A DNA stretch of 60,326 nt from Chitinophagales bacterium (GTDB lineage: Bacteria > Bacteroidota > Bacteroidia > Chitinophagales > UBA2359). Each line of letters begins with the position of its first letter. Positions within the stretch are counted from its first letter, which is position 1. The stretch lies in the NCBI GenBank assembly GCA_016787295.1, contig JAEUUX010000148.1, forward strand, positions 1 to 60,326, given 5' to 3'. The notes below the pieces were generated by a model, which saw nothing but the letters and a program-made list of their open reading frames with translations, ran no database searches and was not told the origin of the DNA. The position numbers were made by a program, and so were the translations under genes. This document shows positions 51,767 through 59,626 of this stretch, piece by piece.

Positions 51767-53497
51767 ATGGCAAACTACGACGTGTCTGTCTTTGACCCGA
51801 TACAGAAATTTTTTCGGGTTTTGCAGCCCGACAAAAAAGATGTGCTATATCTTTATATCTATGCATTTTTTAACAGCCTCATTGCTCTTTCACTGCCTTT
51901 GGGTATCCAAGTCATTATCGGCTTGGTTGTTGGTGGCAATATGAACGCTTCGGTAGTGTTGTTGATAAGCCTCATTACTTTAGCCACTTTGTTGTCGGGT
52001 GTGTTTCAGGTCATACAATTGTATATTATCGAAATTATACAACGCCGCTTGTTCAGTCGAGCCGCTTTTGACTTTGCCTACCGCATTCCGCGATTCCAGT
52101 TCGAAAAAATTTCAGACCAATATATCCCTGAAGTTGTTAACCGTTTTTTTGAAACCCTAACTCTCCAAAAAGGATTTTCAAAAGTATTGATGGATTTTTC
52201 TGCCTCTACTTTGCAAATCTTTTTTGGTTTGTTGCTCATTGCCTTCTATCATCCTTTTTATGTGTTTTTTAGTATTATTCTATTATTAATTGTCTTCATT
52301 ATTTTTTATTTTACGGGTTCAAAGGGTTTGCAAACAAGCCTCAAAGAGTCGTCCTACAAATACGAAGTGGTGCATTGGTTAGAGGAATTGGGTAGAACAA
52401 TGAACAGTTTTAAACTATCAAGCAATATGTCGCTACCACTCCAGAAGTTAGACCCTATGGTGAGCAACTATATTTATGCCCGTCGCAAACACTTTCAGAT
52501 TTTGAGCTGGCAATATTTGAGCATCATTGTGTTTAAGACAAGTGTAATCGCCGCCATGTTGCTTATTGGTAGTTTTTTGGTCATAGACAACCAAATCAAT
52601 ATCGGACAGTTCGTTGCCGCCGAAATCATTATTGTCGGAGTGGTAAATGCCGTCGAAAAACTAATCATGAGTATGGATACGATTTATGATGTTATGACAG
52701 CCGTTGAAAAATTAAGTGTCGTAACAGACATACCATTAGAATCAACATCAGGTAGTTCTTTTGACAGCCTTAATACTAAAAAAGGTATAGCAGTACAACT
52801 CGAACGCTTCAGTTTCCAATTTGAACCAAATACTGTTAAGGTATTGGACGATATTTCGCTACAAATCAAAGGTGGTGAAAAAATTTGCATATCAGGTTAT
52901 AATGATTCAGGCAAATCAACTTTATTAAAAGTTTTGGCAGGTTTTTACAAGGATTTTCAAGGTGGTTTGTTGTATAATGGTATTCCGCTACAAAATCTAC
53001 AATTGGATTCGCTGCGCAGTTATATTGGGGGAGTTTCTGCCGCCGATGATGTGTTTAGTGGCACCTTTGCCGAAAATATCACCATGAACCAAAACGAAGC
53101 ATCTTTACAATACCTGCAAGAAATAGCACAAGTAGTCGGGCTTTTGCCTTTTATACAACAACAACCCAAAGGCTTTGATACGCCCATTGTGTCGAGTGGT
53201 CGGTCGTTGCCGCATAGTGTAGTAAATAAAATTATGTTGGCGCGAAGTCTTGCCATGCAACCACAATTGTTGCTCATCGAAGACCTCTTTAGCAACCTTG
53301 AAATAGCTGATTTGCTAAAAATTGTGCAACATCTTACTGCTGCCCAACAGCCTTGGACACTCCTCATTGCCAGCAACAAAAAGGTGATTGCAGAACAATG
53401 TGAACGTATATTAGTGATGCAAAACGGTTGTCTTATAGCCGATGCTCCATCTACCACCATCTTGAAAGACCAACAATATGCGTCACTATTCCATTAA
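51767..53497 (+). CDS. ABC-type exporter protein with non-canonical ATPase domain
   Basis: A 576-residue protein with a membrane domain (six helices in about 25-320) fused to a nucleotide-binding domain (about 345-576), the plan of type I secretion exporters, but without a C39 peptidase domain. Walker A is intact (GYNDSGKST, 377-385). Other motifs depart from the consensus: the Q-loop site reads VSAADD, the signature reads SSGRSLP, Walker B reads LLLIED (Asp and Glu exchanged), and the H-loop His is Asn537 (ASNKK). I recall related Bacteroidota proteins with similar changes, so this may be a family trait. HlyD and TolC genes follow. Confidence 0.9.
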   Translation: MANYDVSVFDPIQKFFRVLQPDKKDVLYLYIYAFFNSLIALSLPLGIQVIIGLVVGGNMNASVVLLISLITLATLLSGVFQVIQLYIIEIIQRRLFSRAAFDFAYRIPRFQFEKISDQYIPEVVNRFFETLTLQKGFSKVLMDFSASTLQIFFGLLLIAFYHPFYVFFSIILLLIVFIIFYFTGSKGLQTSLKESSYKYEVVHWLEELGRTMNSFKLSSNMSLPLQKLDPMVSNYIYARRKHFQILSWQYLSIIVFKTSVIAAMLLIGSFLVIDNQINIGQFVAAEIIIVGVVNAVEKLIMSMDTIYDVMTAVEKLSVVTDIPLESTSGSSFDSLNTKKGIAVQLERFSFQFEPNTVKVLDDISLQIKGGEKICISGYNDSGKSTLLKVLAGFYKDFQGGLLYNGIPLQNLQLDSLRSYIGGVSAADDVFSGTFAENITMNQNEASLQYLQEIAQVVGLLPFIQQQPKGFDTPIVSSGRSLPHSVVNKIMLARSLAMQPQLLLIEDLFSNLEIADLLKIVQHLTAAQQPWTLLIASNKKVIAEQCERILVMQNGCLIADAPSTTILKDQQYASLFH

Positions 53498-53544: not shown

Positions 53545-54927
53545 ATGCTCAATATATCTCCATATAACAGTACCGCACACCTAAACAAACAACCTTACAA
53601 AACTTTTGAGTTGTTGAATACAGCCGCTTTGTCACAAAAATTGGCTTATTGGCTATTGTTTTTTTTAGTATTGTTTGTTATTATACTGTTTTTACCTTGG
53701 ACACAAAACATTCGTGCCAAAGGAAAAGTAACGACTTTGTATCCCAACGAACGTCCACAAACCATACAGACTACTATTGCAGGACGAATCGAAAAATGGT
53801 TTGTCTCCGAAGGACAACTTATCAAAAAAGGTGATACCATCGTTTTTATTTCCGAAATCAAGGATGACTATTTTGACCCGCAACTACTGCCGCGCACAGC
53901 ACAGCAAATCGCCGCCAAAAAATCGGCAGTGGGCGCTTATGGTGATAAAGCCAAAGCCTTGCAACAACAAATAGCTGCACTCCAACAAAATCAAAGCCTC
54001 AAAAAAAATCAAACTCTCAACAAAATCAAACAAATCAGGCTTAAAATTCAAACAGATAGCATAGACCTTTCGGCAGCCTTGACCAACTATGACGTGGCGC
54101 TGAAACAGTATGAACGTATGCAGCAGTTGTATCAACAAGGGCTAAAATCACTCACCGAATTGGAACAAAGAGAGCTGAAGTTTCAAGAAGCATTAGCAAA
54201 AAAAATTAGTTCTGAAAACAAAATATTGGTGAGCCGCAACGAGTTAAGCAACACCCAAATAGAACTGAACAGCATCGATGCCGAATATGCCGATAAAATT
54301 GCCAAATCGGAATCGGATTTGTTTAGCAGTCTTTCGACACAATATGACGCAGAAGGCAATGTAGCCAAATTGGAAAACCAATATGCCAACTACAGCGCCC
54401 GACAGGGTTTTTACTACATCACCGCACCACAAGATTGCTATGTGACCAAAGCCGTTAAATCGGGCATTGGCGAAAACCTCAAAGAGGGAGACCCTGTTGT
54501 GACCATTATGCCGTATCCTTTCAATAGGGCAGTCGAAATGTACATAGCTCCCATCGACCTTCCGTTGGTGAGTATTGGCAGCGCTGTCCGTATGCAATTT
54601 GATGGTTGGCCTGCTATTATTTTTTCGGGTTGGCCCGGTGCCTCTTATGGCACGTATGGCGGCAAGGTTGTTGGGATTGACAATGTGACCAACAGCGAAG
54701 GCAAGTATCGCCTCTTGCTCAAGGAAGACCCCAACGAACCCAAGTGGCCCGAGGCTTTGCGCGTCGGGTCGGGTGCCAACTGTATGGCTTTGCTCAAAGA
54801 CGTACCCGTTTGGTATGAACTATGGCGACAACTCAACGCCTTCCCGCCCGAATTTTATGAAACTACCGACGACGAAGAAAGCGAAAAATATAAACAGAAA
54901 CCTGCTAAAAAATCGTTTTTTAAATAG
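53545..54927 (+). CDS. HlyD-family membrane fusion protein
   Basis: The 460-residue adaptor has a single N-terminal membrane helix (about 31-52). A barrel/lipoyl half-motif (about 60-95; NERPQTIQTTIAGRIEKWFV, GQLIKKGDTIVFI) is followed by a long coiled-coil hairpin (about 120-275) and a second lipoyl and beta-barrel part (IGENLKEGDPVVTIMPY, about 309-325). It bridges the inner-membrane ABC protein and the TolC channel across the periplasm. It starts 47 bases after the ABC gene. Confidence 0.93.
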   Translation: MLNISPYNSTAHLNKQPYKTFELLNTAALSQKLAYWLLFFLVLFVIILFLPWTQNIRAKGKVTTLYPNERPQTIQTTIAGRIEKWFVSEGQLIKKGDTIVFISEIKDDYFDPQLLPRTAQQIAAKKSAVGAYGDKAKALQQQIAALQQNQSLKKNQTLNKIKQIRLKIQTDSIDLSAALTNYDVALKQYERMQQLYQQGLKSLTELEQRELKFQEALAKKISSENKILVSRNELSNTQIELNSIDAEYADKIAKSESDLFSSLSTQYDAEGNVAKLENQYANYSARQGFYYITAPQDCYVTKAVKSGIGENLKEGDPVVTIMPYPFNRAVEMYIAPIDLPLVSIGSAVRMQFDGWPAIIFSGWPGASYGTYGGKVVGIDNVTNSEGKYRLLLKEDPNEPKWPEALRVGSGANCMALLKDVPVWYELWRQLNAFPPEFYETTDDEESEKYKQKPAKKSFFK

Positions 54928-55054: not shown

Positions 55055-56455
55055 ATGAAATTTTACTATCTCTTTTGCATAACGATGTGTTGGCAAATGG
55101 GTCTTATAGCACAAAGCAATGATAGTTTGCGAATATTAACGCAAAACGATTTTTTTGCATTAATTCGCCAAAATCACCCTTTAGCCAAACAAGCCTATCT
55201 GCTCGACGAAGTGGCAGCCGCTACCCTGCAAGCAGCCAAGGGCAATTTCGACCCACAAACTTTTGCTTATTTCAACAACAAAAATTTTACGAACAAAAAC
55301 TATTATTCACTATTGCAGTCGGGTATAAAAATTCCGCTATATCCAGGTCTCGACCTCAAGGTAGGCTATGATTATGCGAACGGTTATCAGTTGAATCCCG
55401 AAAATAAACTACCCGAACAAGGGCAAGCAAGTGTGGGTGTGAGTGTACCTTTGTGGCAAGGTTTGAGAATAGACCCGCGTCGCGCCGCTTTGCAACAAGC
55501 CAAAGTGTTTGCACAGTCGTCGCGAAACGAGCAAAAAATATGGCTCAACGAGCTGTTTTTTAATGCAGCCATCGATTATTGGCAGTGGACAAAAAACTAT
55601 AACGAGCTACTCATCGCACAAAAAGCACTACAATTGGCAACACAACGCTTTGAGTGGATAAAAAGCAATTATAGACTGGGTGATATTGCCGCCATCGACA
55701 CCCTCGAAGCCTTGTTGCAGGTGCAAACCCGCCAATTTGAACTAAACCAAGTGCAAAACCAATACCGTAATGCAGCAGTTATTTTGGATAGCTATTTGTG
55801 GGACGAAAACGGACGCGGACGCAACATTAGTCAAGAAGTGCAACCCTATCGCACACAATTTGTGGTCACACAGCCGCCCATTGACAACAACCCACCACCT
55901 GTCGACGAACAGCACCCACAATTGCAACTATACCGCTTCAAGTTACAAAACCTCGCAATTGACCGCCGCTGGAAAATTGAAAAACTAAAGCCCAAACTCA
56001 ACCTCAACTACAATTTGCTGGGGAATAGTTGGCTTCCGATAGGCAACGAAACCATACCCATAGTGGATAACTACAAAATTGGTGTTGAATGGAATATGCC
56101 GCTTTTTCGCCGAACTGCCAAAGCAGAGCTAAAATTAGCCGACATCAAAATACAACAAACGCAATTGGATTTGCAGCAAAAACAACAAGAATTACAAGCC
56201 AAACTCAATGTATACTATAATGAATGGCGAAACAACGAACAACAAATCCAATTATACCAACAAATGACCCAAAACTATAGCCGCCTACTGACCGCCGAAG
56301 AAACAGAGTTTAGGGGTGGCGAGTCAAATTTGTTCATTGTCAACTCGCGCGAAAATAAATTGGTAGAAGCTCAAAATAAATTGATAGATTTGCAGGTCAA
56401 ACAGCAAATTATTCGCAATACCATCTTATATTTGCGCAATACACTGGCAGATTAA
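55055..56455 (+). CDS. TolC-family outer-membrane channel protein
   Basis: The 466-residue protein has a signal peptide (about 1-20). The two halves share the helical repeats of the outer-membrane efflux family, e.g. RILTQNDFFALIRQNHPLAKQAYLL (about 26-50) and a long coiled coil (about 365-460). A Pro-rich stretch (PPIDNNPPPVDEQHP, about 276-290) joins them. It should form the outer exit of the exporter whose other parts are encoded just upstream. The gap to the adaptor gene is 127 bases. Confidence 0.92.
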   Translation: MKFYYLFCITMCWQMGLIAQSNDSLRILTQNDFFALIRQNHPLAKQAYLLDEVAAATLQAAKGNFDPQTFAYFNNKNFTNKNYYSLLQSGIKIPLYPGLDLKVGYDYANGYQLNPENKLPEQGQASVGVSVPLWQGLRIDPRRAALQQAKVFAQSSRNEQKIWLNELFFNAAIDYWQWTKNYNELLIAQKALQLATQRFEWIKSNYRLGDIAAIDTLEALLQVQTRQFELNQVQNQYRNAAVILDSYLWDENGRGRNISQEVQPYRTQFVVTQPPIDNNPPPVDEQHPQLQLYRFKLQNLAIDRRWKIEKLKPKLNLNYNLLGNSWLPIGNETIPIVDNYKIGVEWNMPLFRRTAKAELKLADIKIQQTQLDLQQKQQELQAKLNVYYNEWRNNEQQIQLYQQMTQNYSRLLTAEETEFRGGESNLFIVNSRENKLVEAQNKLIDLQVKQQIIRNTILYLRNTLAD

Positions 56456-56471
56456 ACATCATAAGACAAAC

Positions 56472-57824
56472 ATGCCCAACAAAACCACCGCCTTTCCTAC
56501 TACTGCTACTCAACCTGTTATGCCTTCCAACACACTTTTGTTGCTCTATGCAGTGGGACAATTAGGTTGGTCTTTGGCAAGTTTTGCCCCCATCAATTTG
56601 CTCAACTACTATTATCTGCCACCCGAAGACGGAAAAATGCGTTTTTTGCCTTTGTTGGCAATGCCTTTTTTGTTGGGTGTTATCAACGGAGCTTCGCGCG
56701 CCTTTGATGCCTTTATTGACCCCTTAGTAGCCAACAGTTCCGACCGCTCCAAATCATCTTTGGGCAGGCGAAAAGTTTTTATGCTAATTGCCTTTTTGCC
56801 TTTTGCTGCCCTGTCGGTCTTGGTTTTTTGTCCGCCTGTGGTGGGTGAGTCTTGGGTCAATACGCTATTCGTGGCAGCGATGATTTTTCTGTTCCACATT
56901 TTTTTGAGCCTATACACCACTCCTTATAGCGCTTTGGTTAGCGAACTGGGACACACCTCAACTGCACGCCTAAAAATTAGCTCGATGATTTCTATTGCTT
57001 ATGCTTTGGGATTGGGCATTGGCAACCAAGTATATGCGGTCGAAGCCTATTTAGACAATTTTTTCTTGTCTGATACTGCCTTTAGGCTTACATTGGTCAT
57101 TTTCGCGGGCATTGCTGCCGTGTGTATGGTAGTTCCGATACTGTTTGTGAACGAAAAAAAATATTGCGCCCAACAAATATCCGACAAAACCAGCACCGAA
57201 GCTATTCGTTCGGTTTTGCAGCGGCGCGATTTTCGCATATTCATTACCGCCGATTTGGTGTATTGGATGGCGCTAACTTTTGTGCAATCAGGTTTGGTGT
57301 ATTATGTGACGGTGCTGCTTCGAATGGACAAAAGTGTTATTTCGTTAATGACTCCTGTGGTGTTGCTGCTCAATGTGGCAATGTATGTGCCTGTCAATTA
57401 TTGGGCAAATCGTTATGGGAAAAAAGTGCTGTTACAGCATTCTTTTCTGTTGTTTGCATTTGTATATGCTTGGGTAGCTATGTTGGGTAAAATCCCTTTG
57501 CCTAATTATATGCAAGGTTTGTTATTGATAATGCTGCTTATTGTGCCTATGACAGTGTTCAGCATTCTGCCGACGGCGGTGGTGGCAGATATTGCAGATG
57601 CCGACGGCAAACAAACAGGTGACTACAAAGCTGGTATGTTTTTTGGGGTGCGAATTTTGGCAATGAAATTGGGTGTTGCGTTGGCAAATGTGCTGTTTTC
57701 GTGGTGTTTGTTGCTCGGCAAAAGTACTGCCAACGACTTTGGTATTCGCTTAACGGCTATTGGTGCAATGATGGCTTGTTTGTTGGCTTGGCGCATTTTT
57801 GCAGATTTTAGGACAGAATCTTGA
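56472..57824 (+). CDS. GPH-family (MelB-like) sugar/cation symporter, MFS fold
   Basis: A 450-residue protein with 12 likely helices. The GPH signature is clear at about 75-99: RAFDAFIDPLVANSSDRSKSSLGRRK (Asp near 78 and 82, the S-x-S-LGRRK cytoplasmic loop). The second half has VADIADADGKQTGDYKAGMFFG (about 367-388), also typical. Members import sugars with Na+ or H+. It starts 16 bases after the TolC stop, so it belongs to the exporter operon, an unusual mix of import and export genes. The GH36 enzyme at 16537 could use such a transporter, but that is speculation. Confidence 0.9.
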   Translation: MPNKTTAFPTTATQPVMPSNTLLLLYAVGQLGWSLASFAPINLLNYYYLPPEDGKMRFLPLLAMPFLLGVINGASRAFDAFIDPLVANSSDRSKSSLGRRKVFMLIAFLPFAALSVLVFCPPVVGESWVNTLFVAAMIFLFHIFLSLYTTPYSALVSELGHTSTARLKISSMISIAYALGLGIGNQVYAVEAYLDNFFLSDTAFRLTLVIFAGIAAVCMVVPILFVNEKKYCAQQISDKTSTEAIRSVLQRRDFRIFITADLVYWMALTFVQSGLVYYVTVLLRMDKSVISLMTPVVLLLNVAMYVPVNYWANRYGKKVLLQHSFLLFAFVYAWVAMLGKIPLPNYMQGLLLIMLLIVPMTVFSILPTAVVADIADADGKQTGDYKAGMFFGVRILAMKLGVALANVLFSWCLLLGKSTANDFGIRLTAIGAMMACLLAWRIFADFRTES

Positions 57825-58300
57825 AATATTTAGCCGTTTTTTTGGTGAATTGTTAAAAAAGACTTAATTTTGTTGCTGTATTGATACAAAAAAATAATTA
57901 TCCTTGCCCATGGGGAGATTGCGTTAGGGATGCGGAGGGTGGCGTTAGCCAGTGCGGAGCTTGCGAAGCACCGCAGCGAAGCGAAGCCCGTAGCAGCCCG
58001 ACCCGTAGGGAAACGCCCAAAATAAAGAAAAAGAATTTATTTTTTTAAACCTTTTAGACTATATTGCGTCTAAATAACAAAAACAAGAAGAATGCCATGC
58101 TGTTGCTCGATATAATGTCATAATTTAGGTTTTTATTATTATGTATTTTCCTGAAATTTAGGCAGTTATCTGCAATAAGGCAAAAGTTTTGTTTTTTTTG
58201 TGTCTATTGGTTATGTAGCTATTAAGCCATAACTCTTTCTTTCAAAGTGGTAATAACAATACCTTCAAAATATATTTTTTCAACCATCAAAGAAATAACT
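57825..58300. other. Long intergenic region with a GC-rich repeat
   Basis: The 476-base AT-rich region is interrupted by the GC-rich repeat at 57921-58018. No gene is seen, and no good promoter box was recognised ahead of the ATG at 58301. Confidence 0.5.
57921..58018 (+). repeat. GC-rich dispersed repeat, copy A
   Basis: The 98-base sequence runs from GCGTTAGGGATG to GGGAAACGCCC and is far richer in G and C than its surroundings. It holds a hairpin (57953-57975): TGCGG-A-GCTT-GCG-AAGC-A-CCGCA. Copy B at 60154-60252 matches it in reverse orientation over its whole length with scattered changes. No protein-coding frame is conserved. Confidence 0.9.
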
Positions 58301-59626
58301 ATGAATTTGTTTCATTTTTTTGCCGCATTTATTGGTTTAAGTATTTCAATGGTTGCGCTTGCACAAGACGATGTGTACGACTACCAACCAAACACCAACA
58401 CCCCCACACAAACTACCACCACAAACACCACAGAAGGTGGTAATACCTACATTACCAACAACAATTATTATGACACCGATGGTGGTGGTTTTGATGATGA
58501 TGAGTATGACTATTATTATAGCTCTCGCATTCGCCGCTTCCACAGTCCTGTGACGGGCTGTAGTTATTATAGTGGTTATTATGTTGACCAATATTGGTAC
58601 AATCCTGACCCATTTTTCTGGGGACAAACTATTTATTATAACCCTTACTCGCCCGTAGTGGCAATGTATCAGCCTTGGTGGTCTTGGTGGCGACCTCGTC
58701 CTATTATCCAAGTCAACTATTACAACAACGGCTGGGGTTGGAACAACTATAATAACGGTTGGAACAACGGCTGGAACAACTACTATGGCGGTTGGAATAA
58801 TGGCTGGAACAACTATTACAATTGTGGCTATAATTCTTGGAACAACGGCTGGGGTTATGGCAACTGGCAAAATGTGGTAGTGAACAACTACTATTCTGGT
58901 CCCTACTATAATGGCGATTCAGACAATACGTATGGCGGTCATCAAGGACCTCGTCCGGGTAAAGATTCTTATGGCGGTCGCAATAATGGTGGCGCAGATG
59001 TAGGAATTTATAACACCAACTATAACAATGGTGGTGGCGTTCGCCCTAATCCACACAATACAGACACACAAGGTGGTAAAAATGATGGCAACGTTGGTAT
59101 TGGCAATACAGTACGTCCATCAAAAAATACGAATGTTTCGCCTTTCCAACAAAACGACAATAATAGCACGCCAGTAAAAACTGTTCGTCCAAATCAAAAC
59201 AATAACGATACGGACAATAACAACAATTTTGACCCAGCGGATAATACTAACAACAATAATAGTGGTAGTGACCGTCCAAAACCTAAAAAAGGAAACGTGG
59301 TTTTTGACCAACAAACAGAGATGAACAACAATAGCCAACCAGTTAAAAATCAATCTCAAGAACAAGGTGGTTATGAAAAACCTAAAAAAGGTGGTCATGA
59401 CTCGGCTCCTGTGATGGAACAACCCAAAAAAGGTAAAGATCGCGACCATAGCCCTTCTATCGACAAACCTCGTCAAGACAAACAACCTAAATCGTACAAT
59501 AGCGGTGATGGTTCGAGCAAGTCGTATAGCTCTGCTCCAAGTCGCAATAGCAATAATAGTCAGCCTTCACGCAATAGCAACAATAACAATAGCAACAACA
59601 GCGGTGGCTCGCGCAAACCTCGTTAG
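58301..59626 (+). CDS. Low-complexity Asn/Gly/Trp/Tyr-rich secreted protein
   Basis: The 441-residue protein starts at the ATG at 58301, where the signal peptide MNLFHFFAAFIGLSISM begins. Residues about 25-115 are Asn/Thr- then Asp/Tyr-rich; about 140-205 contain iterated NNGW / NNYYGGWNNGWNNYYN units; and about 215-441 are Asn/Gln/Ser/Pro/Lys-rich with recurring VRPN-NN and (K/Q)PKKG motifs. Four Cys are spread in the first half. No enzyme or sorting domain is present. It is probably disordered or self-assembling on the cell surface (inference). It lies between two inverted GC-rich repeats. Confidence 0.82.
   Translation: MNLFHFFAAFIGLSISMVALAQDDVYDYQPNTNTPTQTTTTNTTEGGNTYITNNNYYDTDGGGFDDDEYDYYYSSRIRRFHSPVTGCSYYSGYYVDQYWYNPDPFFWGQTIYYNPYSPVVAMYQPWWSWWRPRPIIQVNYYNNGWGWNNYNNGWNNGWNNYYGGWNNGWNNYYNCGYNSWNNGWGYGNWQNVVVNNYYSGPYYNGDSDNTYGGHQGPRPGKDSYGGRNNGGADVGIYNTNYNNGGGVRPNPHNTDTQGGKNDGNVGIGNTVRPSKNTNVSPFQQNDNNSTPVKTVRPNQNNNDTDNNNNFDPADNTNNNNSGSDRPKPKKGNVVFDQQTEMNNNSQPVKNQSQEQGGYEKPKKGGHDSAPVMEQPKKGKDRDHSPSIDKPRQDKQPKSYNSGDGSSKSYSSAPSRNSNNSQPSRNSNNNNSNNSGGSRKPR

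Follow-up and report, generated by a model that had tools for sequence, protein, structure and literature searches.

The catalytic residues of the nucleotide-binding domain (NBD) are lost as a fixed feature in a Bacteroidota family of ABC-type half-transporters, and one branch nested within this family has deleted the domain altogether, the transmembrane domain (TMD) and the operon partners HlyD and TolC being retained. Because the catalytic residues are gone in nearly every relative examined and the deletion left the partner genes in place, the pumps of this family are probably powered in another way than by hydrolyzing ATP themselves. On balance, we favor a tripartite exporter related to type I secretion systems, composed of an ABC-type TMD dimer, HlyD and TolC, in which transport would be uncoupled from hydrolysis by the protein itself. 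The member described here is encoded in the window, i.e., the whole stretch of 60,326 nucleotides of Chitinophagales DNA that was analyzed. From the sequence patterns presented below we infer the loss of hydrolysis, a homodimeric assembly, the coupling to a gradient, the direction of transport and the kind of substrate.

The window gene and its operon

The gene (51767..53497, + strand, as are its parts and the HlyD and TolC genes given below) is an intact open reading frame of 576 amino acids, and its description as an exporter half-transporter with an intact TMD and a catalytically degenerate NBD is based on this frame, on Pfam matches and on alignment. The TMD (residues 28-285, 51848..52621), which is kept family-wide and is the most conserved part of the protein, matches PF00664 with 32.4 bits (gathering score 28), and the NBD (residues 343-576, 52793..53494), the part missing in the NBD-less clade, matches PF00005 over residues 360-504 with 57.2 bits (gathering score 25), the domain pairing of ABC exporters with a type IV TMD. 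As the preliminary description had pointed out, the gene is intact and precedes HlyD and TolC genes. These encode a HlyD-type periplasmic adaptor of 460 amino acids (53545..54927), the only such adaptor that turned up in the genome, and a TolC-type outer-membrane channel of 466 amino acids (55055..56455). These three genes form a conserved unit in 134 of 138 loci; beyond HlyD and TolC no neighbor is common to all members at these loci, and the remaining window neighbors are not kept, even in close relatives. Among the latter, a GPH-type sugar/cation symporter gene (56472-57824) starts 17 bases past TolC and does not adjoin the operon in close relatives, and a further gene (58247-59626) encodes an Asn/Tyr/Gly/Trp-rich low-complexity protein that falls in no assigned family and is probably exported.

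Within the NBD, the Walker A motif GYNDSGKST (residues 377-385, 52895..52921) is perfect, in agreement with the preliminary description. The Q-loop Gln, the LSGGQ signature, the order of the Walker B acids and the switch His had been noted there as altered, and this is borne out both by an alignment to solved exporters, in which the motif columns are placed without any indel, and by a 229-sequence alignment giving identical columns. The Q-loop Gln is replaced by Ala425 (53039..53041), the signature position reads LPHSV (residues 481-485, 53207..53221), Walker B reads LLLIED for the canonical LLLLDE (residues 501-506, 53267..53284), the acids being exchanged from D-E to E-D, and the switch His is replaced by Asn537 (53375..53377). 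Furthermore, the D-loop Asp is replaced by Glu512 (53300..53302), a change that the earlier reading lacked, as it lacked the NBD-less sister clade. The two alignments rule out that canonical motifs were displaced by a misread insertion.

A nucleotide site is formed by the Walker A and B motifs and the Q- and H-loops of one chain together with the signature of the other (PMC7756269). The window chain is broken on both of these faces and therefore, given this architecture, a consensus site would be missing from a homodimer and equally from a heterodimer with an intact chain. The heterodimeric exporters TM287/288, TmrAB and TAP likewise deviate from the consensus at Walker B, signature and switch, including the change of the Walker B Glu to Asp, but one of their sites stays canonical since the two chains divide the signature and Walker B defects between them, whereas the window protein carries both losses in one chain encoded by a single gene without partner. 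Among the matches listed for the searches with the window protein and with an NBD profile, the window contig (C190) has no second ABC ATPase and thus no adjacent half-transporter gene that would provide one canonical site, in agreement with the earlier statement that no separate ATPase gene lies nearby.

The NCBIfam models closest to the window protein include TIGR03375 and TIGR01846, which represent type I secretion transporters of the HlyB/LssB kind and share with it the HlyD and TolC partners of the operon. Nevertheless, its scores are far below the family cut-offs (190.3 bits against 693.1 and 160.6 bits against 725.6, respectively), and the family differs from those systems in having lost the catalytic motifs and, in many members, the N-terminal domain, and in one clade also the NBD. 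Some members do carry an unannotated N-terminal extension of about 150-190 amino acids or more (L013, L015, L016, L019, L044, L062-L073) at the position of the C39-like domain of HlyB; Pfam scans of some of these members gave no match for it, and it is missing in the window protein and in the NBD-less members.

Motif loss and domain deletion across the Bacteroidota

The family spans the Bacteroidota, relatives being present in 75 of 292 good genomes in a phylum-wide search; a TMD query against the class to which the window belongs detected them in 180 of its 339 good genomes. The NBD-bearing degenerate set comprises 103 members, window protein included, and 30 canonical exporters served as controls; since the rows were sorted into sets by the motif table and the tree, the percentages that follow describe clades and not a blind sample. 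The.S.G[QE] signature is kept in 0% of the 103 members, the Q-loop Gln in 2%, the switch His in 5%, the Walker B Glu and Asp in 17% and 24%, and the D-loop Asp in 27%; by contrast, 92% retain the Walker A Lys, and conservation extends to the A-loop aromatic residue. In the controls, the Q-loop, signature, Walker A, Walker B, D-loop and switch residues are each kept in 93-100%. The agreement of 103 relatives in being degenerate at these positions, against 30 controls that are canonical there, excludes chance as the origin of the changes, and the question of whether they are fixed among orthologs, raised in the preliminary description, is answered positively. A sister or outgroup set of 11 proteins has lost the Q-loop Gln and keeps the Walker B Asp in 100%, the Glu in 91% and the His in 82%; it looks like an intermediate state, and the loss of motifs thus looks stepwise.

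A wide variety of residues now occupies the lost signature, Q-loop, D-loop and switch positions. Yet LP[RK]S is a frequent substitute for the signature, and Arg493 and Asn437 are invariant in the degenerate NBDs, which argues that the domain has been reshaped and is not decaying. Its dN/dS of about 0.05-0.24 in measurable pairs, a rough estimate with synonymous sites near saturation in many of them, indicates that it is still under purifying selection; this selection and the intact Walker A show that the degenerate NBD still does something. The same range and the intact frame rule out pseudogene decay of the window gene, in line with what had been assumed at first. In 5253 of 5253 pairs of family members, similarity is higher in the TMD than in the NBD (mean 51% vs. 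31%), an inversion of the pattern of canonical exporters, 98% of whose pairs have the NBD as the more similar domain. A few NBD-bearing lineages scattered over the tree have lost Walker A as well, with the TMD still conserved (L047, L065/L089, L107, L205, L211, L217, L224).

The first sign of NBD loss came from four distant relatives with only about 340 residues. A search of named genomes yielded 80 NBD-less loci, in Pedobacter, Mucilaginibacter, Sphingobacterium, Chitinophaga, Hymenobacter, Olivibacter, Taibaiella, Terrimonas and others. In 80 of 80 the frame stops at 333-380 amino acids, corresponding to a TMD of about 335 amino acids, and is directly followed by HlyD, with TolC coming after HlyD in 78; an NBD-like open reading frame is found within 8 kb in only eight of the 80 loci and within the operon in none. 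The TMD of these proteins has a median dN/dS of 0.02, and PF00664 is the only known transporter family that an NBD-less member matches above its cut-off. That the NBD-less form is a frameshift or assembly artefact is ruled out by the 80 named loci, their monophyly, the dN/dS of about 0.02 and the HlyD gene immediately after the stop. One further candidate, L188 (G546), was dropped as its gene is cut by the contig end.

The NBD-less proteins form a single clade inside the degenerate clade (bootstrap 100, SH-aLRT 99), their sister being the NBD-bearing protein L016 (support 100/98), and the alternative topology with a separate degenerate clade is rejected by the AU test (p 0.028). The HlyD tree displays the same nesting of NBD-less within degenerate members, although it counted as NBD-bearing three loci (L140, L142, L157) that are all NBD-less. 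Because of this nesting, the deletion is placed last, and the most likely order of change, as read from the trees, would be canonical, partly degraded, fully degenerate, deleted.

Several other features accompany the NBD-less operons. The NBD-less gene is immediately preceded, in the same orientation, by an open reading frame of about 110-130 amino acids (L109:7499-7834, L110, L111, L166 and about 50 more loci); its product has one N-terminal hydrophobic stretch, commonly ends in PTPPP and has no Pfam match. In some Pedobacter genomes, a single contig carries two oppositely oriented NBD-less operons separated by about 24 kb (L120/L153, L129/L155, L125/L156), and in one Pedobacter cryoconitis strain the TolC frame is split in two (L182:10350-11793).

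Three options for the NBD had been offered in the preliminary description, namely slow hydrolysis, a nucleotide-gated scaffold and the need for a second ATPase, with no driving force besides ATP being weighed, and as a set they are only partly supported. Slow, non-canonical hydrolysis sufficient for a low-turnover exporter would be compatible with the intact Walker A and with the Walker B change from Glu to Asp, which is mild and known from degenerate sites (PMC7756269). We nevertheless regard it as improbable, as the signature, Q-loop, D-loop and switch were lost together and drifted to many residues, and the NBD is the faster-evolving half of the protein. As a power source it is unlikely since the signature and the Walker B and switch residues are broken in one and the same chain, and a whole sister clade lives without the domain.

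The scaffold option is possible, given that the Walker A Lys and the A-loop aromatic residue are kept. In a related explanation, opening would be set by ATP binding, with negligible hydrolysis, and the substrate would run down its own gradient through TMD, HlyD and TolC, the gate having been lost or replaced in the NBD-less clade. The conserved binding residues, the purifying selection on the NBD and the recurrent LP[RK]S, which suggests a new constraint instead of decay, all fit this gated exporter or channel; yet gating by ATP could not be essential where Walker A is lost or where the NBD is deleted with the operon kept, and we hold it to be a rather doubtful account of the family. In the uncoupled tripartite exporter that we prefer, the TMD dimer would perform alternating access and the substrate would be carried out by HlyD and TolC, with an NBD that does not hydrolyze but, because of the retained Walker A Lys and A-loop aromatic residue, probably still binds ATP and may act in structure or gating. 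Since one clade deleted it, this domain would be dispensable on an evolutionary scale.

The possibility of an ATPase supplied in trans

Alternatively, power could come from a partner of the TMD, either a canonical half-transporter or an NBD encoded on its own. The genomes examined contain many other ABC exporters, and the degenerate gene is immediately preceded by a fully canonical ABC exporter gene in one bacterial family (L094, L095, L096, L100, L105). However, this upstream gene was rejected as an operon part, since it is not conserved at the other loci; the conserved operon contains no NBD gene; and in a heterodimer both sites would be compromised by a window chain devoid of the signature and of the catalytic Walker B and His.

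The genomes of the NBD-less clade provide a further line of evidence. When a profile built from the degenerate NBD was applied to two genomes carrying this domain, it reached 279-309 bits, and in nine NBD-less genomes the profile search did not find it: the best matches there are canonical-type full-length exporters, with at most 184 bits, and stand-alone NBDs reach about 105 or less. Each of the nine genomes has one family member at the cut-off used. Moreover, the docking element itself is relaxed in this clade. In ABC exporters the NBD docks on coupling helix 2, and the corresponding region (residues 208-228, 52388..52450) is the least conserved stretch of the NBD-less relatives, with length changes and a z of -1.08 vs. 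+0.30 in canonical exporters, for region boundaries that we set ourselves. A short coupling helix is still predicted, with moderate confidence, in the NBD-less structure model (pLDDT 74). The recruitment of an unrelated ATPase would be conceivable in principle. Altogether, supply in trans seems unlikely to us, and the option of a second ATPase is disfavored by the lack of a companion NBD in the operon and of a related NBD in the nine NBD-less genomes.

Transmembrane residues, possible driving force and evolutionary meaning

Several residues of the TMD are invariant or nearly so in NBD-less and degenerate proteins and not in canonical exporters: Glu89, Lys135, Lys139, Tyr161, His162, Lys198, His242, Glu286, Glu297, Lys298 and Asp308. 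Two of them, Glu286 and Glu297, sit within the hydrophobic stretch of TM6. Position 286 (52622..52624) is acidic in 85 of 85 NBD-less and 103 of 103 degenerate proteins and in 0 of 30 canonical ones; the adjoining pair Glu297-Lys298 (52655..52660) is Glu or Asp followed by Lys throughout the family and rare in canonical exporters, position 297 being acidic in 85/85, 103/103 and 3/30, respectively. Invariant charged residues occur also in the cytoplasmic helix extensions of the TMD. The retention of the operon partners in 134 of 138 loci would likewise be expected if the TMD did not transport and were an inner-membrane platform lending HlyD and TolC to another pump; but the low dN/dS of the NBD-less TMD and the invariant charges of TM6 and of the helix extensions exceed what an anchor needs, and we consider this explanation very improbable.

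The NBD-less protein is predicted, with the same pLDDT of 74, as a complete ABC-exporter TMD that superposes on HlyB 8dck (Z 26.8, 324 residues) and on a TmrAB chain (Z 27.1); SbmA is absent among the structural matches listed for this model, a result that is informative neither way. In a model of the whole window protein, computed with an alignment of NBD-less rows only, the NBD has a pLDDT mostly below 50 and is unreliable.

For the uncoupled exporter, the replacement energy source would be an ion gradient, probably of protons, acting through Glu286, Glu297 and Lys298 of TM6. Such a drive is possibly analogous to that of SbmA, which is related to a different ABC family, has only a TMD and is proton-driven through a glutamate ladder; SbmA-like transporters arose from a full-length ABC transporter already bearing part of this ladder, as do NBD-bearing relatives of SbmA (PMC13316013). 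The NBD-less members resemble these SLiPT proteins (SbmA/BacA) in being an ABC TMD minus the NBD, and their invariant TM6 acids would be compatible with proton drive. There are also differences: SLiPTs are importers, have an extra TM0 domain and lost the coupling helices, of which a short one in an unconstrained stretch is still predicted in the NBD-less members. The latter match PF00664 and not SbmA_BacA (no match even at E up to 1, as for the window protein at E up to 0.001), are encoded together with HlyD and TolC, and form part of a distinct branch, close to type I secretion, whose intermediates are still alive. Furthermore, the window protein itself retains its NBD, which is absent only in the nested relatives, and the import by SbmA is a counterpoint to the analogy, as the HlyD-TolC operon looks like that of an exporter. 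The TM6 acids are already present in the outgroup, where Walker B and His are retained; they are therefore older than the motif loss and may serve substrate binding. As to the substrate, a TetR-type regulator directly upstream in 24 NBD-bearing loci (L064, L067, L077, L189, L191, L194, L197, L198, L201 and 15 more) hints at small-molecule efflux.

With more reserve than for the exporter itself, we put forward that in this family an ABC transporter has, for a second time and independently, turned into a secondary active transporter, here within a tripartite exporter and with all stages alive, i.e., canonical ATPase, partly degraded, fully degenerate (the window protein) and deleted. The HlyD-TolC operon is common to the two latest stages. 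No description of degenerate homodimeric or NBD-less HlyD-TolC exporters was found in open-access PMC text.

ABC transporters are defined by ATP hydrolysis, and the present family, which roughly half of the genomes sampled from the class of the window possess, deviates from this rule. The departure is visible step by step in living species, up to an endpoint consisting of a TMD, an adaptor and an outer-membrane channel without any ATPase, so that the conversion of a primary into a secondary pump becomes directly testable. In turn, this suggests that many ABC-domain genes of the Bacteroidota do not use ATP in the way their family names imply.
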